Origin: Quadrisphaera granulorum
Lineage (GTDB): Bacteria; Actinomycetota; Actinomycetes; Actinomycetales; Quadrisphaeraceae
NCBI RefSeq assembly: GCF_003149145.1
Contig: NZ_QGDQ01000024.1
Span: 1 to 64,000, forward strand
Direction: 5' to 3'
Length of the DNA stretch: 64,000 nt
A model generated the notes under the pieces. The model was not told where the DNA came from and searched no databases. It saw only the letters and a list, made by a program, of their open reading frames with translations. A program made the translations under genes and the position numbers. Numbering within the stretch: position 1 is the stretch's first letter; each line of letters starts with the position of its first letter. Shown piece by piece: positions 3,085-14,261 of the stretch.

Positions 3085-3636
3085 TCAGCGGCTCCGTGCC
3101 GGCAGCGTCGTGAAGCCGCTGGCGTGGAACACGAGCGGACCCGGCTCCAGCACGCGGTGAGCGTGCACGCGCAGCAGCACCACCACGTGGTCACCGCCCG
3201 GCAGCTCCTCCTCGACGGAGCACTCGAGCCACGCGGCGGCGCCGTCGACGAAGACCGCTCCGCCGTCGCCGTCCACCAGCGACAGGCCGGCGAACCTGTC
3301 GGCGGTGCGGGAGGCCAGCTGACGCGCGGTGGTGTCGTGCGCCTCGCCGAGCACGGAGATGCCCAGGCGGCCGCCCGCTCCCGCCTCGCGCAGCTTCGGC
3401 CAGGTCGACGACGCCCTGTCGACGCAGACGAGCACGAGCGGTGGGTCGAGCGAGACGGACGTGAACGAACTCATCGCCATCCCGATCGGGGTGCCACCGA
3501 TGCGCGCGCAGGCCGACACCACCCCGCTGGGGAAGCGCCCGAACGCGTCGCGGAGCGCGCGGTGCGCTGAGGCGGCATCGGGGGCGTCGTCGACGTCGGT
3601 CAGACCCGCGTCCGTTCCGGTCACCGGGGTGCTCAC
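3085..3636 (-). CDS. Flavin reductase-like FMN-binding protein
   Basis: 183 residues, normal for the HpaC/NtaB-type flavin reductase family. Family features include FGRFPSGVV near residue 33, GIPIGM-like GGTPIGMAMSSFTSVSLDPP for flavin binding, and a GDHVVVLLRV segment near the end. Such enzymes reduce FMN with NAD(P)H and pass it to a partner monooxygenase. The partner is next door: the GTG start overlaps the stop of the upstream NtaA-like monooxygenase gene by four bases (GTGA), which implies coupled translation. Together they form a two-component FMN monooxygenase. The flavin reductase call is firm; the final substrate of the pair is not known. Confidence 0.85.
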   Translation of the reverse strand: MSTPVTGTDAGLTDVDDAPDAASAHRALRDAFGRFPSGVVSACARIGGTPIGMAMSSFTSVSLDPPLVLVCVDRASSTWPKLREAGAGGRLGISVLGEAHDTTARQLASRTADRFAGLSLVDGDGGAVFVDGAAAWLECSVEEELPGGDHVVVLLRVHAHRVLEPGPLVFHASGFTTLPARSR

Positions 3637-5042
3637 GCGGTCGCCCAGGTGCGCGCCGCGGCACCGGGGTGGTCGGCGGGCAGGTGGCGGCGGCCTGCGC
3701 CGAACATGCGCTCGCGCAGGGTCTGCTCGGTGTACTCGGTGGGGAACCTGCCGGCGGCGCGCAGGCGCGGCACCACGTGCTCGGCGACGTCGTCCACCGA
3801 CCCGGGCTGCACGAACGGCTCCAGGAGGAAGCCGTCGACCCCGGTGGAGTCGACGAGGTCGAGCACCTGCTCGACGACGTCGTCGGGGGAGCCGACGGCC
3901 ACGAGGCCGCGAGAACCGCGAGTGCGGTGAGCTTCGATCACGTCACCCACCGTAGGACCGGGCCCATCACCGGCCTGCCGCAGATGCCTTTCGATCTGGC
4001 TCTGGCCCATCTCGGTGCGGATGCCCGCGAACGGCGCATCCGGGTCGTACGCGCCGAGGTCGATGCCGGTGAACAGCGCGTAGCTGGCGATGGCGGTCTC
4101 GCGGGTGTTCAGCGCCAGGTACTCGGCATAGCGGCGCTGCGCCTGTTCGCGGGTGGGGGCGACGACGACGGACAGCCCCACCATCGTCTTCACCGAACCC
4201 GGCGCCCGTCCGGCCTCGACGGCGAGCCGGTCCAGCGTCGCCACGTGCTCGGCGAGCTTGGCCTTGGTCGACCCCTGGAGGAAGACGCACTCCGCGTGCC
4301 GTGAGCCCACGCCCAGCCCCGCCTTCGACGTGCCGGCCTGGAACAGCACGGGCGTGCGCTGGGGCGAGGGTGCGGTGTTGCTGTACCCGTCGACGGAGAA
4401 GTACCGGCCGGTCCGGGTCACGCGGTGGACCTTGGCCGGGTCGGCGTAGGTGCGGCTGGCCTTGTCGGCCAGCACGGCATCGTCCTCCCAGGAGCCTTCG
4501 AGGATGGCGTAGGTGGTGAGCAGATGGTCCTCGGCCATGGCGTACCGCTCGTCGTGGGGGACCATCGGCCGACCGAAGTTGGCCGAGGCGCTCTCCGCGA
4601 AGCTCGACGTCACGACGTTCCAGCCGATGCGACCGCGGGTGAGGTGGTCGAGGGTGGAGAAGCGGCGTGCGTTGGCGAACGGCGGTTCGAACATCGTCGA
4701 GGCCGTCACCACGAAGCCCAGCTGCTGCGCCGCCTGCGCCATCGCCGGGACGAGGAGCATCGGGTCGAGGCGGGGGAGCTCCATCGCCTCGCGGGCGTTG
4801 ACGTCGGGGCGGACCCCGCCGATCTCACCGTGGCCGTAGCTGTCCGCCAGGAAGCAGAAGTCGAAGGTGGCGTCCTGCAGGCGCTGGGCGGTCTCCACCC
4901 AGTACGACAGGTCGGCGTACCGGTGGGTCTGGTTGTGGGGGTGCGTCCACGTCGTCATCCCACCGACGTTGAGGACGGGCGTCTCGAACAGGCCGAGCTT
5001 GATGTGCTTGCTGGGGGCAGGACGCGTGGGGGCAGAGGACAT
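3633..5042 (-). CDS. NtaA/SnaA/DszA-family FMN-dependent monooxygenase
   Basis: 469 residues with a luciferase-like TIM-barrel fold, typical in length for the NtaA/SnaA/DszA group. Visible family features are KLGLFETPVLNVGGMTTWTH at the N-terminus, FCFLADSYG, a central TRGRIGWNVVTSSF segment and PVLFQAGTSKAG. Members use FMNH2 from a separate reductase to oxidise nitrilotriacetate, dibenzothiophene sulfone, dimethyl sulfide and similar compounds; the reductase gene follows directly. ATG at 5042 is preceded by AGGAG at about 8 nt. A candidate leader peptide lies upstream, which would fit control by sulfur supply (inference). The exact substrate cannot be told from sequence. Confidence 0.88.
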   Translation of the reverse strand: MSSAPTRPAPSKHIKLGLFETPVLNVGGMTTWTHPHNQTHRYADLSYWVETAQRLQDATFDFCFLADSYGHGEIGGVRPDVNAREAMELPRLDPMLLVPAMAQAAQQLGFVVTASTMFEPPFANARRFSTLDHLTRGRIGWNVVTSSFAESASANFGRPMVPHDERYAMAEDHLLTTYAILEGSWEDDAVLADKASRTYADPAKVHRVTRTGRYFSVDGYSNTAPSPQRTPVLFQAGTSKAGLGVGSRHAECVFLQGSTKAKLAEHVATLDRLAVEAGRAPGSVKTMVGLSVVVAPTREQAQRRYAEYLALNTRETAIASYALFTGIDLGAYDPDAPFAGIRTEMGQSQIERHLRQAGDGPGPTVGDVIEAHRTRGSRGLVAVGSPDDVVEQVLDLVDSTGVDGFLLEPFVQPGSVDDVAEHVVPRLRAAGRFPTEYTEQTLRERMFGAGRRHLPADHPGAAARTWATA

Positions 5043-5812: not shown

Positions 5813-6831
5813 AATGGCGCTGGGTCGCCGTCACCGCTGTCGCCCCCATTTCCTGGGGCACCGCCTACTGGGTGACCGGCCACGCGCTGCCCGCCCACGA
5901 GCCCCTGTGGGGAGGCGTGCTCCGAGCCCTGCCTGCCGGCCTCGTGCTGCTCGCCCTGCCCCTGCACGGCTCCGCGAGTGCAGGGCGGGGCCGCAGGGTG
6001 CACGGCGTCTGGTGGTGGCGCGCCGCGGTGCTCGGCACCCTCGTCAACGGCGCGTTCTTCTCCCTCGTCTACGCCAGCGCCCAGCTGCTGCCCTCGTCCG
6101 TGGCCGCCACCGTGACAGGCCTCAGCCCGCTCGTCGTGCTCGTCCTCGCGTGGGCCTTGCTCGCCCAGCGACCACGCCTGGCGACGACGGCGTCCGCACT
6201 GATCGGGCTGGTCGGCGTCGTCCTGCTGGTCGGTGCCGCCGCCTCCGGGCTGGACCCGCTCGGCGTGCTCGCCGCCGTGGCCGCAGTGGTCGTCTTCGCC
6301 GTCGGCACCGTGCTGTCCCAGCGCTGGACCCGCAGCGCCGCGGCTGCCGGTGAAGCCGTGCCGCCCGCGCTGACCATGACGGCCTGGCAGCTCACCCTCA
6401 GCGGGCTCCTGCTCGCGCCGGTGGCCGCCGCCGTCGAGGGCGCACCGCCCTCCCTCGACGGCGCGGGCCTGCTGGCCCTGGCCTACGTCTCCCTCGTGGC
6501 CACCGCGCTGGCCTTCACCGCCTGGTTCGCCGGCCTCGCGCGGCTCGACGCGAGCGCCGTCGCCGTCGTCGGGCTCCTCAACCCGGTGGCCGGCGTGGCG
6601 CTGGGCACCCTGCTCGCGGGCGAGCACCTCAGCGCCCTCCAGTGGGTGGGGCTGCTGCTCGTGCTGGGCGGCGTGGCGCTGGGACAGGCCCGCCGTAGGG
6701 TCGTCGGTCGTGAGCCAGCGACCGGACCTGAGGATCTTCACCGAGCCCCAGCAGGGGGCCACGTACTCCCAGCTGCTGGCCATGGCCCGGCGGACCGAGG
6801 AGACGGGGTTCAGCGCCTTCTTCCGCTCTGA
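5803..6831 (+). CDS. EamA/DMT-superfamily transporter
   Basis: A membrane protein with about ten hydrophobic segments arranged as two EamA repeats (APISWGTAYWVTGH near the start; LARLDASAVAVVGLLNPVAG in the second repeat). Members export metabolites or drugs across the cytoplasmic membrane. GTG 5803 lies inside the MarR operator region, so expression is probably controlled by the divergent MarR protein. The last helix ends around residue 300; the frame then runs on for about 42 non-hydrophobic residues, overlapping the next gene by 122 bp. That tail is probably a chance extension past the ancestral stop. Substrate unknown. Confidence 0.85.
   Translation: MEDKWRWVAVTAVAPISWGTAYWVTGHALPAHEPLWGGVLRALPAGLVLLALPLHGSASAGRGRRVHGVWWWRAAVLGTLVNGAFFSLVYASAQLLPSSVAATVTGLSPLVVLVLAWALLAQRPRLATTASALIGLVGVVLLVGAAASGLDPLGVLAAVAAVVVFAVGTVLSQRWTRSAAAAGEAVPPALTMTAWQLTLSGLLLAPVAAAVEGAPPSLDGAGLLALAYVSLVATALAFTAWFAGLARLDASAVAVVGLLNPVAGVALGTLLAGEHLSALQWVGLLLVLGGVALGQARRRVVGREPATGPEDLHRAPAGGHVLPAAGHGPADRGDGVQRLLPL
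6696..6701 (+). promoter_or_regulatory. -10 box of the F420-type oxidoreductase gene
   Basis: TAGGGT, 8 nt before GTG 6710, lies within the 3' end of the transporter gene. It suggests the oxidoreductase has its own leaderless transcript. Confidence 0.4.
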
Positions 6832-7654
6832 CCACTACCTCGCGATGGTGGACGATCCCGCGAACGCCCTGCCCGGCTCGACCGATGCGTGGACCACCCT
6901 CGCTGGCCTCGCCCGTGAGACGAGCAGGGTGCGCCTGGGCACGTTGGTGTCCTCCGCAACGTTCCGCCATCCCGGCGTGCTCGCGGTGCAGGTCGCGCAA
7001 GTCGACGAGATGTCCGGCGGCCGCGTGGAGCTGGGTCTGGGCGCGGGGTGGTTCGAGGCCGAGCACGCCGCCTACGCCATCCCGTTCCCCCCTCTCAAGG
7101 AGCGGTTCGACAGGCTGGCTGAGCAGCTGGAGCTCATCACCGGGATGTGGTCCACGCCGGCGGGCAGCACGTACGACTTCTCCGGTCAGCACTACACCGT
7201 GACGGACAGCCCGGCGCTGCCCAAGCCGGTGCAGCAGCCGCTGCCCGTGGTGGTCGGCGGTGCGGGCAAGAAGCGCACCCCGGAGCTCGCCGCCCGCTAT
7301 GCGGCGGACTTCAACGCGGGCTTCTGCACCCCCGAGGACGCCGGCCAGCGCTTCGCCCGGGTGCGCGCCGCGTGCGAGGCGATCGGGCGCGACCCGGGCA
7401 CCATCGAGCTGTCGGTGGCGCACCTGCTCGTCCTCGGGAAGGACGACGACGAGGTGGCGCGCCGCGCCCGTGCCGTCGGCCGTGACCCCGAGCAGATCCG
7501 GGAGCAGGGGTTCTGCGGCACGCCGGGCGAGGTGGTCGAGCTGCTGGGGCGCTACCGCGAGGCGGGCGCGACCCGGTTCTACCTGCAGGTGCTCGACCTG
7601 GCCGACCTCGACCACCTCGACGCGTTCGCGTCCCTGGTGACCCCGCAGCTGTAG
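6710..7654 (+). CDS. LLM-class F420-dependent oxidoreductase
   Basis: 314 residues of the luciferase-like fold. The N-terminus LRIFTEPQQGATYSQLLA and the motif FFRSDHYLAM match the actinobacterial F420-dependent subgroup. GRVELGLGAGWFEAEHAAY and PLPVVVGGAGKKRTPELAA are the usual barrel-strand motifs. Such enzymes use reduced deazaflavin F420 for hydride transfer to varied substrates. GTG 6710 is the natural family start, although it lies inside the preceding transporter frame. The cofactor is inferred from family resemblance; the substrate is unknown. Confidence 0.88.
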   Translation: MSQRPDLRIFTEPQQGATYSQLLAMARRTEETGFSAFFRSDHYLAMVDDPANALPGSTDAWTTLAGLARETSRVRLGTLVSSATFRHPGVLAVQVAQVDEMSGGRVELGLGAGWFEAEHAAYAIPFPPLKERFDRLAEQLELITGMWSTPAGSTYDFSGQHYTVTDSPALPKPVQQPLPVVVGGAGKKRTPELAARYAADFNAGFCTPEDAGQRFARVRAACEAIGRDPGTIELSVAHLLVLGKDDDEVARRARAVGRDPEQIREQGFCGTPGEVVELLGRYREAGATRFYLQVLDLADLDHLDAFASLVTPQL

Positions 7655-7685: not shown

Positions 7686-8210
7686 TCAGGCGTGTCGGTG
7701 GGCCACCGGGGTGGGTGCTGCCTTCTTGCCAAGCAGCGGCTCGATGACGTCCGCGCCCTTCTCGGAGGCGAACGCGAGCAGTGCGCCGACCACGAGCGAC
7801 ACCACGGACGCGAGGACGGCCGCTCCGCTGGCTCCTGTGCCGAAGAAGCACGCGGCGCCGACGAAGGCGCCGGGGATGAAGGCCAGCGGCTTCCACGCGG
7901 CCTGCACGCACATGCCGAACGCGCCGATCGCCACCGCCAGGCCCAGGACGGCCGCGTTGCCGCTCATGGCGGCGGTGGCGGCCTGGATGATCAGCCACCC
8001 CCAGACCACGCCGGACAGGGTGGACGCCACGGTCTTGCCGAGCCCGCCCGTGCCTCCGCCGGCGGCGTAGAACATCGCCCAGGCGGCGAAGCCCACCCAG
8101 ACGACGAGGACGGCGGCGGTGGTGCCCGCCTCGGGCAGGGAGAAGCCCACCCAGGTGAGGATCCCCGCGAGGACGCCGATCGAGATGCCGAGCGCGAGCA
8201 GACGCTTCAT
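7686..8210 (-). CDS. DUF1097-family membrane protein
   Basis: 174 residues with five or six hydrophobic segments and a short polar C-terminal tail ending in VAHRHA. Sequence and size resemble the DUF1097 family, small inner-membrane proteins of unknown function. AAAGGAG precedes ATG 8210 by 7 nt, a strong ribosome site. It lies downstream of the DUF59/amidohydrolase genes in the same direction, but a large inverted repeat separates them, so it may be transcribed on its own. It converges on the oxidoreductase gene with 31 bp between stops. Confidence 0.75.
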   Translation of the reverse strand: MKRLLALGISIGVLAGILTWVGFSLPEAGTTAAVLVVWVGFAAWAMFYAAGGGTGGLGKTVASTLSGVVWGWLIIQAATAAMSGNAAVLGLAVAIGAFGMCVQAAWKPLAFIPGAFVGAACFFGTGASGAAVLASVVSLVVGALLAFASEKGADVIEPLLGKKAAPTPVAHRHA

Positions 8211-8346: not shown

Positions 8347-9162
8347 TCAGGCGGGGCGACGGCTGAGCAGCTGCACCGGGACCGGTGAGGTGCCCTCGTC
8401 GCGGGGGGCCTGGTCGTGCTCGGCCCCCGGGTAGCGCGTGGCCAGCAGGCCGCGGCAGAAGTGCGCGTTGCCGTCGATGCTGATGCGCGTCGACCTGGCC
8501 TTGCGCAGCCACATGCCCACCACCGACGGCGGCACGGGCGTGCCGTGGTCGTCGACGGCGACGGGCGCGTCGTCAGCGGTGCTGAGCCCGAGCGCCGAGC
8601 GACGGCGCAGCAGCGCCGCCGTGACCTCGCCGGGCAGCAGGTCTCGCACCCTCACGGCGTGCACGTCGTGCTCGCCGAGCGTCGGACGTGCCCGCAGCAG
8701 CGCGGTCAGCGCCCGCTCCGCCGCGGCGGTGTGGGCCTTGCGGCGGAAGGTCAGGCGCAGCTCGTCGAGGTCGGACTCCGCCTCGTGCCCGAACGTGCCC
8801 TTGTACCCGGCGTCGGCCGCGAGGCCGCGGTTGATGAGGTCGGAGTCGTGGTGGTCGTCGAGCTCGACGTAGGCCCGCCCGCCGCCGTGACGGCCGAGCA
8901 GCGCCTCCAGCACGTCCTTGGCGTCCGAGCACATGAGGTAGGCGAAGTTCGGCGAGCAGAACGAGGTCGGCAGGCGAAGGTGCACGCGCAGCGACCGGCC
9001 ACGCTGACCGTCGCCGTCGTCGCCCAGCTCATCCAGTGATCGAACGAACCCCAGCGACGTGATCGCCTCGTCGAGCTCAGGGTCCATGACCGCCCCGAGC
9101 GCGTCCCAGGCCTCCTGTTCGAGCCGGGTCCGCTGCTCGACCCGCTCGGCGACGGCCGTCAC
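8347..9162 (-). CDS. MIP18/DUF59-family metal-sulfur cluster assembly protein
   Basis: 271 residues. The N-terminal 60 residues carry the MIP18/PaaD-type signature (ALGAVMDPELDEAITSLGFV). The rest is a longer family-specific region containing FCSPNFAYLMCSDAKD and a C-terminal FCRGLLATRY. DUF59 proteins assist iron-sulfur or diiron enzyme maturation. Proteins of this length occur next to the amidohydrolase in propane-monooxygenase gene clusters, where they are thought to help assemble the diiron hydroxylase. The GTG start overlaps the upstream amidohydrolase stop by four bases (GTGA). No monooxygenase is in this window, so its client here is unknown. Confidence 0.75.
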   Translation of the reverse strand: MTAVAERVEQRTRLEQEAWDALGAVMDPELDEAITSLGFVRSLDELGDDGDGQRGRSLRVHLRLPTSFCSPNFAYLMCSDAKDVLEALLGRHGGGRAYVELDDHHDSDLINRGLAADAGYKGTFGHEAESDLDELRLTFRRKAHTAAAERALTALLRARPTLGEHDVHAVRVRDLLPGEVTAALLRRRSALGLSTADDAPVAVDDHGTPVPPSVVGMWLRKARSTRISIDGNAHFCRGLLATRYPGAEHDQAPRDEGTSPVPVQLLSRRPA

Positions 9163-10223
9163 GCCATCCCCGTCATGAGCTCGGACTCGGCGGCGCGGGG
9201 GTTGTCGACCTTCACGGCCGGCTCCTCGACGTTCAGCGGTTCCGGTGCCACCTGCAGGTGCGCCGGGACGGGGATGTCGTAGAGGGCCGCGGCGTTGAGG
9301 CCGAGGATGCGCTTCTTGGAGTCGGTGGTGAGCGGGGCGTACTCCGTCATGTCTTCGGGGATCTGGAAGTCGACGAACTTCTCCACCAGCCACTTGGGCG
9401 TCCAGATGGCGTAGTCGGAGGAGAAGAAGATGCGGCTGTCGCCGATCCAGTACATGAGCTCGCCGATGATCTGCGCGAAGTAGCGCGGGCGCGAGTGGAT
9501 GAACGGCATCGCAACGGCCAGGCCGGCGTAGACGTTGGGCTCCTGCGTGGCGATCCAGCAGAAGTCCTCCAGACGCGGCAGGCCGCAGTGCTCCACCACG
9601 AAGTTGAGGTCGGTGAAGTCCGAGGCGACGGCGTCGATGTCGGCGACGTCGAACGCGTCACGGTCCAGCGGGCGGATGGTGGGGCCCTTGTGCACGTGGA
9701 TGTTCTTGATGCCGAGTTCCTGACAGGCCTCCAGGTAGCGGTAGCTCCACGGGTCGGTGAGCTTGTAGCCGCGCGACTCGCCCTGCCACTCCGCCGTGTA
9801 GAGCTTCACGCCCTTGAGGTTCATGCGCTCCGCGTCCCTGCGGAGCTGCTCCAGGCCCCGCTCGCCGAAGCGCGGGTCGAAGGCGTGGTTGTAGGTCAGC
9901 TTGTCCGGGTGAGCCTGCGCGAGGGCGAGCGCCTGCTCGGTCTGCCCGAAGCCGTTCCTGTAGAACTCGCCGAGGATCGCCGGCTGGAAGATCGCGTGGT
10001 CGACGTAGCCGTCCTCGAAAAGGTCCTTCATGAGACGGTCCGCGTAGTACAGGTACTGGTCGTAGGACCAGTGCTCGCTCTCGGGCGAGAGGTTGCGGTG
10101 GTAGTCGTAGAAGCAGTCGATGAACTGCTTGCCGTGGATGTTGCGGAGGTTCTCCGGGCGGGCGTCCCACAGCGCGATGTGCGCGTCGAGGATGAAGTAG
10201 TCGGTGCCGTCCTTGCTGTACAC
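9159..10223 (-). CDS. Amidohydrolase family protein of the propane-monooxygenase-associated type
   Basis: 354 residues of the amidohydrolase-2 (ACMSD-like) fold. GTDYFILDAHIALWD, NIHVHKGPTIRPLDRDAFD, FVVEHCGLPRLEDFCWIA and FFSSDYAIWTPKW supply likely metal-binding His and Asp residues. The sequence closely resembles the amidohydrolase found beside the prm/mim propane-oxidation genes of actinobacteria. Its role there is not settled and may be in enzyme assembly. GTG 10223 is preceded by GAGGAGG at 6 nt. The first metal pair, usually HxH, reads DAHIALW here, so one ligand may be missing. Operator-like repeats lie upstream, shared with the divergent regulator. Confidence 0.85.
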   Translation of the reverse strand: MYSKDGTDYFILDAHIALWDARPENLRNIHGKQFIDCFYDYHRNLSPESEHWSYDQYLYYADRLMKDLFEDGYVDHAIFQPAILGEFYRNGFGQTEQALALAQAHPDKLTYNHAFDPRFGERGLEQLRRDAERMNLKGVKLYTAEWQGESRGYKLTDPWSYRYLEACQELGIKNIHVHKGPTIRPLDRDAFDVADIDAVASDFTDLNFVVEHCGLPRLEDFCWIATQEPNVYAGLAVAMPFIHSRPRYFAQIIGELMYWIGDSRIFFSSDYAIWTPKWLVEKFVDFQIPEDMTEYAPLTTDSKKRILGLNAAALYDIPVPAHLQVAPEPLNVEEPAVKVDNPRAAESELMTGMA

Positions 10224-10284
10224 GGTGCCTCCTCGTCGAGGTGGTGCGTCGTTGCTCCGAGAAGACCGTCGCACCCCGTGGCCC

Positions 10285-10319
10285 CGTCTCACAGAGGGTG
10301 TACGTCTCACTGTGAGACG
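10285..10319. promoter_or_regulatory. Candidate operator: GTCTCA-N3-TGAGAC plus extra half-site
   Basis: A perfect inverted repeat CGTCTCAC-T-GTGAGACG lies at 10303-10319, with a further CGTCTCAC half-site at 10285-10292, 18 bp earlier. It sits between the amidohydrolase and the divergent GAF/AAA regulator. The same arms and spacing recur at 12995-13011, next to the alcohol dehydrogenase gene. Confidence 0.65.
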
Positions 10320-10390
10320 CGCTCGCTCACGCCGCTTACGCTGAGTGCCGACGGGGGCAGCGTTGCCTCCGACCTCGGGGGTGGGGAATC

Positions 10391-11866
10391 GTGCCGGAGG
10401 CCCTGGCGGGCACGTCGGTGGACACGTCGCTGAGGCTGCGGGCCTCATGGGCGCGGTGCGAGCACCTGGAGGTGCCGCCCGACGAGGTGCCACCCGTGTT
10501 CAGCGGCGCGGTCGACGTGGACCCCGTCTTCGTGGAGTCCGGTCGCACCGTGCTCGCCGACCTGCGCTCCACCCTCGCCGGGGAGCCCGTCGGCGTCATG
10601 CTGACCGACGCCACCGGCCTGGTGCTGCAGCGGTTCCTCGACGACGCCGCCATGCACCGCTCCCTCGACAGGGTGCATCTGGCGCCCGGCTTCTCCTACG
10701 CCGAGGCACACGCCGGCACCAACGGCCTGGCCCTGGCGCTGGCCGACCGCGCTCCGAGCATCGTGCGTGGCCCGGAGCACTATGTGGAGAGCCTGCGCGA
10801 GTACACCTGCGCCGCTGCGCCGGTGATCGACCCGCGCACCGGCGACATCGCCGGCACCGTCAACCTCACCACCTGGTCGCGCTCGTCCTCCGGCCTGCTC
10901 CTCGCGCTGGCCACCACCGCGGCCCGCAGTACCTCGGCGCTCATGCTCGCCCGCACCGGAGGCACCGCTGCCCTCGGACCTAGCAGGACGACGACGGGCG
11001 CCGCGGCTGCGCCGCGTGGGCAGGTGTACCGCGTGGTGCCCGCCCGGGCAGCCGGCCCCGCGGACCCCTGCACCTCGCGGCTGTGGCGCACCGCCGTTGA
11101 GCAGGTCGAGCGGGCGCTGCTCGCCGGGCGCGTCGTCGCGCTCGCGGGGGAGGCCGGGGCGGGCAAGACGGCGCTGGTCGCCTCCGCACGCCGCCGCGCC
11201 GAGCTGCGCGGCACGCTGCTCGCGGCCCGCACGCCCGGCCCCGAGGAGGTCAGCTCCTGGATGGCCGCGTGGACGCCGGTGCTCCACGAGGACGGCGCCT
11301 GCATCGTCGTCTCCGGCACCTCCGCGCTGCCCGCGTGGGCCGTTGACGAGCTCGCTGCGCTGCTGGCTGCCGCGCGGCGCAGCGACGGCTCACCGCAGCC
11401 GTTCGTCCTGACCGAGCACGACGCGCCGTCGCTGCCCGAGGCGCTGGCCGCGCTGGTCGACGTCGTCGTCGAGGTCCCCCCGCTGCGCGACCGTCCCGAC
11501 GACGTCGTCCCCCTGGCCGAGCACTTCGCCCGCGCCTACCGCCACCGCGACGTGGCGATCACGCCCGCCGCCGCGCAGGTGCTGCGGGCGGCAGCGTGGC
11601 CGGGAGGCGCGACCCAGCTGCGGCAGGTGGTGCAGGCAGCCTCGGCGCGCACCGACGTCGTCGACGTCCGCCACCTTCCGGCCGACCTCGCCTCCCGCAC
11701 CCGGCGCACGCTCACCCGCCTCGAAGCCCTCGAACGCGACGAGATCGTCAAGGCGCTCGCGGTGCCCGGCACGACGGTGGCGCAGGCCGCCGAGAGACTC
11801 GGCATCTCCCGCGCCACCGTCTACCGGCGCATCAGCTCCTACGGCATCGACGTGCCGCGCGCATGA
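10391..11866 (+). CDS. GAF-AAA-Fis transcriptional regulator, sigma54-activator-like but lacking GAFTGA
   Basis: 491 residues. An N-terminal GAF-like sensor (about 40-200) contains GFSYAEAHAGTNGLALAL. An AAA+-like region has Walker A GEAGAGKTALV near residue 253 and the sigma54-activator segment PPLRDRPDDVVPLAEHF. The C-terminal Fis helix-turn-helix is AAERLGISRATVYRRI. It resembles AcoR/MimR-type activators of acetoin and propane operons. The GAFTGA loop that contacts sigma54 is absent, consistent with actinobacteria lacking sigma54, so it must act on the housekeeping polymerase in another way. It is divergent from the amidohydrolase and convergent with the alcohol dehydrogenase, and it probably binds the GTCTCA-N3-TGAGAC sites. 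The GTG start is tentative. Confidence 0.85.
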   Translation: MPEALAGTSVDTSLRLRASWARCEHLEVPPDEVPPVFSGAVDVDPVFVESGRTVLADLRSTLAGEPVGVMLTDATGLVLQRFLDDAAMHRSLDRVHLAPGFSYAEAHAGTNGLALALADRAPSIVRGPEHYVESLREYTCAAAPVIDPRTGDIAGTVNLTTWSRSSSGLLLALATTAARSTSALMLARTGGTAALGPSRTTTGAAAAPRGQVYRVVPARAAGPADPCTSRLWRTAVEQVERALLAGRVVALAGEAGAGKTALVASARRRAELRGTLLAARTPGPEEVSSWMAAWTPVLHEDGACIVVSGTSALPAWAVDELAALLAAARRSDGSPQPFVLTEHDAPSLPEALAALVDVVVEVPPLRDRPDDVVPLAEHFARAYRHRDVAITPAAAQVLRAAAWPGGATQLRQVVQAASARTDVVDVRHLPADLASRTRRTLTRLEALERDEIVKALAVPGTTVAQAAERLGISRATVYRRISSYGIDVPRA

Positions 11867-11873
11867 TCAAGGT

Positions 11874-12902
11874 CTAGGGGATGAGTATCCCGCGGCCGCG
11901 GATGTTGCCGGACTCCAGGTCGTGGATGGCGTCGAGCGCCGCCTCCAGCGGGTACTTCTTGGTGTGCAGCGTGACGCGGCCCTGCGCGGTGAGCGCCATG
12001 AGCTCGACGAGGTCCTGGTAGGTGCCCACGAGGTTGCCGACCACGTTGATCTCGCGGCTGATGATCTCGATGGTGGGCAGGCGCACCTCGCCGCCGTAGC
12101 CGATGACGTAGTGCGAGCCGCGGTTGCGCAGCAGCTTCGGCGCGAGGAGCTCCGCGCCGTGCTCCCCGACGACGTCGAACAGCACGTGGGCGCCGCCGTC
12201 GGTGGCGTCCAGCACCGCCTTCTCGACCTCGGCGTCGCTCGTCGCCTGCACGGTGTGGTGGGCGCCGATGCCCTTCGCCAGCTCCAGGGCCGCTTCGCTG
12301 CGGTCGACCACGGTGATCTGGGCGCTGGTGATGGCCGCGAGGGTCTGGATGCCGATGTGTCCCAGTCCGCCGGCACCGACGACGACGGCGTGGGTGCCCG
12401 GGAACAGCACGTCCGCTGCCTTGCGGACCGCGTGGTAGGCGGTGAGGCCGGCATCCGCCAGCGCCGCGACGTCGGCGGGCTGCAGCCCGCCGTCGAGCTT
12501 CACCACCGAGCGGGCGTTGGTGAGCAGCTGCTCGGCCATGCCGCCGTCGACGTTGAGACCAGGGAACACCGCGTTCTGGCAGTGCGAGTCCTGGCCGTTG
12601 CGGCAGGGCAGGCACAGCCCGCACGTGACCAGCGGATGCATGATCACCACGTCGCCGGGGGCGACGTTGCTCACCGCCGAGCCGACGGCGCGGACCGTGC
12701 CGGCGTTCTCGTGGCCGATCGTGTACGGCAGCGGCGGATGCTGGATGGGCTCCCACTGCCCTTCGATGATGTGCAGGTCCGTCCGGCACAGGCCCGCCGC
12801 GCCGATGTCGACGACGACGTCCCAGGGCCCGGAGACCTCCGGCTCGGGCACGTCGTCCAGCGACGGCGGCTTGTTGTACTCGTGCACGCGCAGGGCCTTC
12901 AC
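11874..12902 (-). CDS. Zinc-dependent NAD(P)+ alcohol dehydrogenase
   Basis: 342 residues of the medium-chain dehydrogenase/reductase family. Catalytic zinc ligands are C39 and the GHEN motif H64/E65. The structural zinc site is C94, C97, C100 and C108. The Rossmann motif is GAGGLGHIGIQ. Close relatives oxidise secondary or medium-chain alcohols in alkane-oxidation clusters. GTG 12902 has GAGGAGGAG upstream. The promoter region carries the same inverted repeat as the amidohydrolase/regulator intergenic region, so co-regulation is likely. It converges on the regulator gene with 7 bp between stops. Enzyme class is certain; the natural alcohol is inferred. Confidence 0.93.
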   Translation of the reverse strand: MKALRVHEYNKPPSLDDVPEPEVSGPWDVVVDIGAAGLCRTDLHIIEGQWEPIQHPPLPYTIGHENAGTVRAVGSAVSNVAPGDVVIMHPLVTCGLCLPCRNGQDSHCQNAVFPGLNVDGGMAEQLLTNARSVVKLDGGLQPADVAALADAGLTAYHAVRKAADVLFPGTHAVVVGAGGLGHIGIQTLAAITSAQITVVDRSEAALELAKGIGAHHTVQATSDAEVEKAVLDATDGGAHVLFDVVGEHGAELLAPKLLRNRGSHYVIGYGGEVRLPTIEIISREINVVGNLVGTYQDLVELMALTAQGRVTLHTKKYPLEAALDAIHDLESGNIRGRGILIP

Positions 12903-12994: not shown

Positions 12995-13011
12995 TGTCTC
13001 ACCCTGAGACG
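12995..13011. promoter_or_regulatory. Second GTCTCA-N3-TGAGAC operator candidate, upstream of the alcohol dehydrogenase
   Basis: TGTCTCACCCTGAGACG has the same arms and 3-nt spacing as the site at 10303-10319. It overlaps the stop codon of the ureohydrolase gene and lies about 95 bp before the alcohol dehydrogenase start. Confidence 0.65.
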
Positions 13012-14261
13012 TTGCGGCGGAGGCTGCGCGGCTCCAGCGTGCCGCGGGAGCGCGGGTCGACGTAGCGGGTCTGCGTCAGCCCCCGCTTGCGCATGGCGAT
13101 ACCCGTCATGGCCTCGCGGACCGCCCGGTTGGCGAGCAGCGCGGTGATGGCACCGGGTCCGTCGTAGGGCGGGGACACCTCGACGACGTCCATCGCCACG
13201 ATCCCCACCTCGGCGCTGAGCCGGCGCACGGCGGCCAGCACCTGGCTGCTCGTGAGGCCACCGGGCTCGGGCGTGCCGGTGGCGGGGGCGAACGCCGGGT
13301 CGGCGACGTCGATGTCGAGGGAGATGTAGAGGTAGTCGGCCTGGTCGAGCGCCTCGTCGACGGCGCGCTCGAGCACCGCGTCGAACCCGTCCTCCTCGAT
13401 CTCGGCCATGAAGTGGGTGCGCATGCCCTGCTGCGACATCCAGTCGAGGGTGTCCGGCGTGGGCCAGTACCCGCGCAGCCCCACCTGCACGAAGTTCTTG
13501 CCCGGCACCGCGCCCGACTCGATGAGCTTGCGCATCGGGGTGCCGTGGCTGGCGAGGTGGCCGGGGGAGTTGGGGGCGGTGTCGGCGTGCGCGTCGAAGT
13601 GGACGATGCCGACCTTCCCGTGGCCGTGGTGGTCGGCCACGGCCATCGCGCACGGCCACGTGATGGAGTGGTCTCCGCCGAGGATGATCGGGACGGCGCC
13701 GGTCTCGACGACCGCCCCGACGAACTTGCGCACCCCGACGAACGAGCCCATGACGTTGCCCAGGTGCAGCGGCGCGTCGCCGAAGTCGCACATGCGCAGG
13801 TCCGCGAAGGCGTCCACGCGGGTGCCCAGGTGAGGGGCCGGGTAGCCGAACCCGCCGACGTAGTCGCACGAGCGGATGGCCGCCGGCCCGAACCGGGCGC
13901 CGGAGCGGCCCGTCGTCGTCGCATCCCACGGCACCCCGAGCACGGCGACCTCCATCTCCCCGGCCCGCAGGTCCTCCGGGGTGAGGCAGACCGGGAGCTT
14001 GCCGAAGGTCTGGATGCCGTAGGAGGCCTCGCCGTCGTAGCGGTCCACGAAGATCGGACCGGGCCGGCGGCCCTGGCGCGCGCCGTAGGGGTCGACGGCC
14101 CCGTGGCCCTCCAGTCCGGTGCCGAGGCTGGGGGAGAGGTCGGCGGAGAGCGCGTCGAGGTCGGCGAGGACGGCCGGGTCGCCGTCGTGGTGGTGGTGCT
14201 CGTGGGGTGTCTCGTCGCCGTCGAGGTCGGGCGGCCACCAGCCGCCGCGGGAGTCGCTCAC
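12999..14261 (-). CDS. Agmatinase-family ureohydrolase with His-rich N-terminus
   Basis: 420 residues. The arginase/agmatinase core has the binuclear Mn motifs [16 protein letters not shown] and SLDIDVADP. Family members hydrolyse agmatine or related guanidino compounds, releasing urea. An N-terminal extension of about 100 residues includes HEHHHHD near residue 20, possibly a metal-binding stretch, and [17 protein letters not shown]. The GTG start overlaps the lipB stop by four bases (GTGA), so it is translated with lipB. Long-form members of this family may act on guanidine or other substrates, so the substrate is left open. There is no clear functional link to lipB. Confidence 0.85.

Follow-up and report, generated by a model that had tools for sequence, protein, structure and literature searches.

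An amidohydrolase-DUF59-alcohol dehydrogenase cassette of Quadrisphaera granulorum and its kinship with the accessory triad of prm/mim clusters

Introduction

The closest described relatives of the locus presented here are the prm/mim clusters of actinobacteria, which carry the propane/acetone monooxygenase genes prmABCD/mimABCD and are known from M. smegmatis (MSMEG_1970-1979), Rhodococcus BCP1 and Gordonia TY-5. They have the gene order HYDA-RED-HYDB-CPL-AMH-DUF59-ADH-GroEL, in which AMH is an Amidohydro_2 protein and ADH an alcohol dehydrogenase, and stand under the same palindrome as our locus. For Rhodococcus BCP1, a conserved palindrome over the −35 region of prmA was reported, its sequence not being printed in the text (PMC4428276). 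The AMH and DUF59 genes are drawn or listed without an assigned role in the publications we found. A literature search retrieved no biochemical assay of AMH or of a cassette-type DUF59 protein, nor a binding study for the operator sequence or for MimR.

We analysed a window of 64,000 nucleotides (contig NZ_QGDQ01000024.1, positions 1 to 64,000) from the 4.88 Mb, 99% complete genome of Quadrisphaera granulorum. The original prediction, made on this window, saw in it a propane monooxygenase accessory set without the monooxygenase, which may serve another oxygenase elsewhere, play a part of its own in the use of alcohols or ketones, or be a remnant.

Results

Pfam confirmed the four neighbours that had been named at this locus, a DUF59 protein, an amidohydrolase, a GAF-AAA-Fis regulator and a zinc alcohol dehydrogenase (Table 1). 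Alignment of starts and the sequence itself placed the start of AMH at the GTG at 10223, behind the Shine-Dalgarno sequence GAGGAGG, and alignments and sequence likewise placed that of ADH at the GTG at 12902. The longer forms given by the ORF finder, including an AMH start at 10493, were rejected as upstream over-extensions on the grounds of alignments and Shine-Dalgarno sequence. The DUF59 and AMH genes share a GTGA start/stop overlap, and the DUF1097 gene, which adjoins the cassette at other loci too (e.g. L054, L065), probably belongs to the DUF59 operon. The regulator matched GAF, AAA_lid_14 and HTH_8; a Pfam match to Sigma54_activat was not obtained. ADH, with conserved zinc ligands in the alignment, is located beyond the regulator, as against its usual place downstream of DUF59. 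The idea that it is an unrelated neighbour was rejected, since it has its own operator copy and its closest relative within the genome is merely 35% identical.

Table 1. Genes and operator copies of the cassette in the window
Feature	Position	Strand	Remarks
DUF1097 membrane protein	7686..8210	-	downstream of DUF59; Pfam match
DUF59/FeS_assembly_P (PF01883)	8347..9162	-	271 aa; Pfam match
Amidohydro_2 (PF04909) TIM-barrel protein (AMH)	9159..10223	-	354 aa; Pfam match, 163.9 bits
Operator copy 1, GTCTCACTGTGAGAC	10304..10318	.	in the intergenic region of the diverging AMH and regulator genes; 81 bp before the AMH start
GAF-AAA(degenerate)-Fis transcriptional regulator	10391..11866	+	491 aa; divergent from AMH; Pfam match
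Zinc-dependent medium-chain alcohol dehydrogenase (ADH)	11874..12902	-	342 aa; Pfam match
Operator copy 2, GTCTCACCCTGAGAC	12996..13010	.	94 bp upstream of displaced ADH

Some neighbouring genes deserve mention on their own. Two luciferase-like (LLM) oxidoreductases, one an NtaA/DmoA-type flavin monooxygenase and one of F420 type, are encoded at 3633-5042 and 6710-7654, with a MarR regulator and the DUF1097 gene in the vicinity. An agmatinase/arginase-family gene (12999-14261), with lipB upstream, overlaps the second operator copy with its 3′ end and is apparently unrelated to the cassette.

De novo motif discovery in the intergenic regions between regulator and AMH yielded the palindrome GTCTCA-N3-TGAGAC. 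A genome-wide search for such an operator motif, suggested in the original prediction, returned exactly two exact copies in the 4.88 Mb, one ahead of the AMH-DUF59 operon and the other ahead of the displaced ADH, where about 0.07 would be expected from base composition. With at most one mismatch, the palindrome was present between AMH and regulator in 86 of the 92 stand-alone cassettes with an adjacent regulator and in 0 of 212 control windows; the exact form occurred in 19 of 28 cassette genomes and its reversed control in none of the 28. Most of the sites in loci (75 of 89) were situated between regulator and AMH, and 11 of the 89 beside a hydroxylase gene. In the sister genome L001, a one-mismatch version occupies the same place before ADH. 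A TA(G/C)CGT-like −10 element followed the operator after 33 bp in 31 of 54 AMH promoters, in keeping with an activator that works on a sigma-70 promoter; in most homologues the palindrome stands about 40 bp ahead of a −10-like element. From position and co-occurrence, the regulator is predicted to bind the palindrome. The one-mismatch sites elsewhere in the genome (on C9, C12 and C47) were few, had no related genes beside them and were set aside. Away from cassettes, exact copies were seen at position 6947 of L207 and position 6898 of L206 (genomes G268 and G314), where the adjoining genes have no obvious relation.

With AMH as query, 80 loci were collected from diverse actinobacteria. Nearly all of them had the order regulator(−) AMH(+) DUF59(+) ADH(+) with nothing between, often followed by an ABM-domain gene. 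The grouping of the four genes is not due to chance, since almost every one of these 80 independent loci preserves it. Four prmABCD-like genes were inserted between regulator and AMH at only three of the 80 (L019, L028, L034), and L026 and L080 combined a stand-alone cassette with a separate prm cluster. An even sample of 395 genomes of the class contained 28 with both AMH and DUF59. PF02332, the diiron hydroxylase alpha/beta family, was wholly absent from 19 of these 28, linked to AMH and DUF59 in seven (one of which, G369, also had a stand-alone copy) and unlinked in two, G178 and G226. In G226 the prm cluster (L163) was without AMH, DUF59 and ADH, a stand-alone cassette was found on another contig (L162), and the palindrome was present at both. 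Genomes with a prm-type hydroxylase nearly always contained the triad of AMH, DUF59 and ADH somewhere, the exception being the 63%-complete metagenome-assembled genome G371. The triad, by contrast, can do without the hydroxylase.

DUF59 and ADH again accompanied AMHs from outside the class that had 60-67% identity to that of the window (L243, L244, L245, L247, L249, L250, L253). Several of the out-of-class triads adjoined IclR regulators, as judged by Pfam, mostly with no hydroxylase beside them, and 22 of the 35 genomes examined had no PF02332 match over the cut-off. Even AMHs of about 40% identity kept DUF59 and ADH, at L240 and in two genomes of 1.3 Mb (L216, L217), where ABC transporter genes occurred in the same run. 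Other features of these loci were seen in passing. A protein of 305-344 aa without Pfam match accompanied divergent AMH (and DUF59) at L216 (18032-18949), L217 and L239 (1395-2429). A homodimeric pyruvate-dehydrogenase-E1-like (aceE/transketolase-like) gene was found near the cassette at L056, L058, L061 and L066, which are Arthrobacter-type and Geodermatophilus loci. At L157 (G088:C1:2660000-2675000), an orphan AMH with in-frame stops in a first alignment stood beside a cassette-type regulator with neither DUF59 nor ADH as partner; this genome also had a full prm cluster, and the locus is perhaps a decaying cassette.

Between the cassette genes and in the whole window there was no diiron monooxygenase gene, in agreement with the original prediction. 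The proposed extension of the search for hydroxylase and coupling protein to the genome was negative for both: PF02332, which matched 36 of the 395 class genomes in the same search, had no match in Q. granulorum, and neither had PF02406 (coupling protein MmoB/DmpM), which all 7 prm-carrying controls contained. We did not find a dedicated GroEL-like MimG in this genome, its only two GroELs being 58 and 54% identical to a prm-linked GroEL, compared with 64-65% for prm-linked controls. Homologues of acoABC (acetoin dehydrogenase) were not present among the genes beside the cassette (Pfam/NCBIfam).

The predicted structure of AMH was a confident Amidohydro_2 barrel, with 3irs as best Foldseek match (E 9e-12), followed by carboxylate decarboxylases and LigJ hydratase. 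H15, H176/H178, H212 and D270 were invariant in the alignment. The strand-1 motif, however, read D13-A-H15-I-A17 in place of HxH. About 97 of 111 AMH homologues shared this HxA form, among them those of almost every stand-alone GAF-Fis cassette and, of the prm-linked ones, that of L019 at least. HxH was present in 7 of 11 prm-linked members and in the Streptomyces and IclR types, and the group of about 40% identity had HxG. Loss of a canonical metal ligand makes catalysis by the window AMH uncertain. In the DUF59 protein C69 and C236 were invariant in the alignment. Its AF2 model (pLDDT 90) combined a MIP18-like N-domain resembling DUF59/CIAO2B with a helical C-terminal domain; a PDB search for DUF59 gave no match beyond the MIP18 domain, and the helical domain is without a solved relative.

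The nearest relative of the locus, L001 (NZ_VDMJ01000010.1), is labelled Streptomyces sp. NP160, which may be wrong: its cassette matches that of the window in arrangement and sequence, unlike Streptomyces loci. The cassette genes are under purifying selection, as dN/dS values against L001 were 0.13 for AMH, 0.27 for DUF59, 0.22 for ADH, 0.16 for the regulator and 0.17 for DUF1097. In the AMH tree, prm-linked members were early-branching and also nested, on a weak backbone (SH-aLRT 40-58). The DUF59 tree placed prm-linked and Streptomyces-type (ADH-AMH-DUF59) proteins on one side of a branch with SH-aLRT 94. All prm-linked regulators belonged to one group of 11 rows, whose separation from the remaining stand-alone regulators had a value of 100; the group also included four Streptomyces cassette regulators without palindrome. 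The trees of AMH, DUF59, ADH and regulator are compatible with either gain or loss of the monooxygenase. They did not group the proteins with families unrelated to prm/mim, an outcome that would have spoken against the proposed kinship; the proteins belong to the prm/mim family, and the relationship is further supported by the same triad, the same palindrome and the AMHs forming one family.

As to the substrate, an acetoin reductase (TIGR02415, above cut-off) was part of the cassette operon at L060, L064 and L079 and stood under its own operator at L045; L060 and L064 have a prm-like regulator and no palindrome. In Prauserella and relatives, an aldehyde dehydrogenase and a DUF779 gene were found near the cassette. 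In Actinomycetospora chiangmaiensis grown on 2-hydroxyisobutyrate, Adh1 and AMH of the Mim cluster made up 6.1% and 3.2% of the proteome; Mim proteins were also induced on acetone, and oxidation of acetol by Adh1 was proposed (PMC7176365). A published list of genes differentially expressed in M. smegmatis when carbon is limiting includes all of MSMEG_1970-1979 (PMC5445863).

Discussion

The locus is probably an intact, inducible operon, complete in itself, through which a small alcohol or a hydroxyketone is catabolised under the control of a dedicated GAF-Fis regulator. Its distribution suggests that the triad is autonomous and tied to ADH rather than to a monooxygenase, and that the presumed helpers serve ADH. 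To call it an accessory set without the monooxygenase puts the dependence the wrong way round; it is an autonomous triad that prm/mim clusters also contain. Taken together, the acetoin reductase loci, the aldehyde dehydrogenase and DUF779 genes and the proteome and expression reports favour oxidation of short alcohols or hydroxyketones, and among the roles considered at the outset an independent one in the use of alcohols or ketones is favoured. As to substrate class, the data weakly support a preference for a vicinal diol or an alpha-hydroxyketone of the acetoin/acetol type; no metabolic neighbour gene was universal across cassettes, acetoin reductase occurring in just four loci. Against the reading as a catabolic operon, DUF59 might still have its target in some other Fe or Fe-S enzyme of the cell, and the set may contribute to an oxygenase of another family outside the control of the operator.

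We infer the chemistry of AMH and DUF59 and the substrate of the operon within the following scheme. The GAF domain would sense a small oxygenated metabolite, and the regulator would bind the palindrome and activate the AMH-DUF59(-DUF1097) operon and the ADH unit. ADH would oxidise the alcohol to a carbonyl, and AMH, possibly metal-loaded by DUF59, might act on this carbonyl product or otherwise support the ADH step. Where the triad is part of a prm/mim cluster, it would deal with the alcohol that the monooxygenase produces (2-propanol, acetol).

Other explanations differ in what they make of the missing monooxygenase and of AMH and DUF59. If the operon is autonomous, these two proteins might be metal- or metabolite-repair or protein-maturation partners of ADH rather than carbon-pathway enzymes. 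DUF59 is a family of metal/Fe-S maturation, the window AMH is without the second His of HxH, and the AMH-DUF59 pair stays with ADH even where the regulator is a different one. Against this, AMH shows invariance at most of its other catalytic-site positions, the AMHs of the Streptomyces and IclR types and most prm-linked ones have an intact HxH, and the zinc-ligand set of ADH is ordinary. The invariant residues and the retention of HxH in some groups make an enzymatic role of AMH plausible, and we regard the repair or maturation role as unlikely. A set that works in trans on an oxygenase encoded elsewhere in the genome, with DUF59 and AMH in its maturation, is quite unlikely. In its favour, the same triad is found inside prm/mim clusters, and triad and prm cluster of G226 share an operator across two contigs. 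Against it, PF02332 and PF02406 were absent from the genome while the positive controls worked, 18 other cassette genomes were also without PF02332, and no further exact operator copy exists in Q. granulorum. In addition, Furuya reportedly showed in 2013 that heterologous function of MimABCD depends on the chaperonin MimG.

Decay of a prm/mim cluster that has lost its monooxygenase, which the original prediction had also considered, is very improbable. Although ADH has left its usual place in the gene order and the prm-linked members are early branches of the AMH tree, with weak backbone support, a remnant does not fit with dN/dS of 0.13-0.27 against L001, with the preservation of both operators or with a monooxygenase-free order that recurs in tens of genera; the majority of stand-alone regulators, moreover, make up a clade separate from the prm regulators.

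For the intact alcohol or hydroxyketone operon, one may go further, tentatively: AMH and DUF59 could form an obligate enzyme pair with ADH, for example as a metal-loaded lyase or hydratase consuming a reactive carbonyl, in an unnamed route for short alcohols and hydroxyketones that is independent of propane/acetone monooxygenases and possibly predates them; HxA of the GAF-Fis cassettes would then be a new metal-site variant with altered chemistry. Comparative genomics separates AMH and DUF59 from the monooxygenase and ties both to ADH. Whether they act in monooxygenase maturation or in product metabolism is directly testable in organisms without monooxygenase, and the palindromic operator is a practical handle for finding the inducer.

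Among known proteins, AMH resembles gamma-resorcylate and 5-carboxyvanillate decarboxylase and LigJ in its TIM-barrel and in the His/Asp positions after strands 5, 6 and 8; it differs from these Amidohydro_2 decarboxylases and hydratases in having only about 14-19% identity and an Ala in place of the second His of the strand-1 HxH. The regulator shares with AcoR/DhaR-type GAF-AAA-Fis regulators the GAF sensor, the Fis-type HTH and the divergent orientation towards the target operon. In contrast to them, no sigma-54 activation domain was detected in it, and most homologous cassette promoters have a sigma-70-like −10 element at a fixed distance from the operator. Compared with prm/mim clusters, the cassette is without hydroxylase, reductase, coupling protein or dedicated GroEL; its regulator comes from a separate clade, its AMH has HxA in place of HxH, and its ADH is transposed under an operator of its own. 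AMH, DUF59, ADH, the divergent GAF/Fis regulator and the palindromic operator are common to both, as is the ABM-domain gene to some members of each. In our assessment, the cassette is a variant of the accessory triad of prm/mim clusters, autonomous and regulated.
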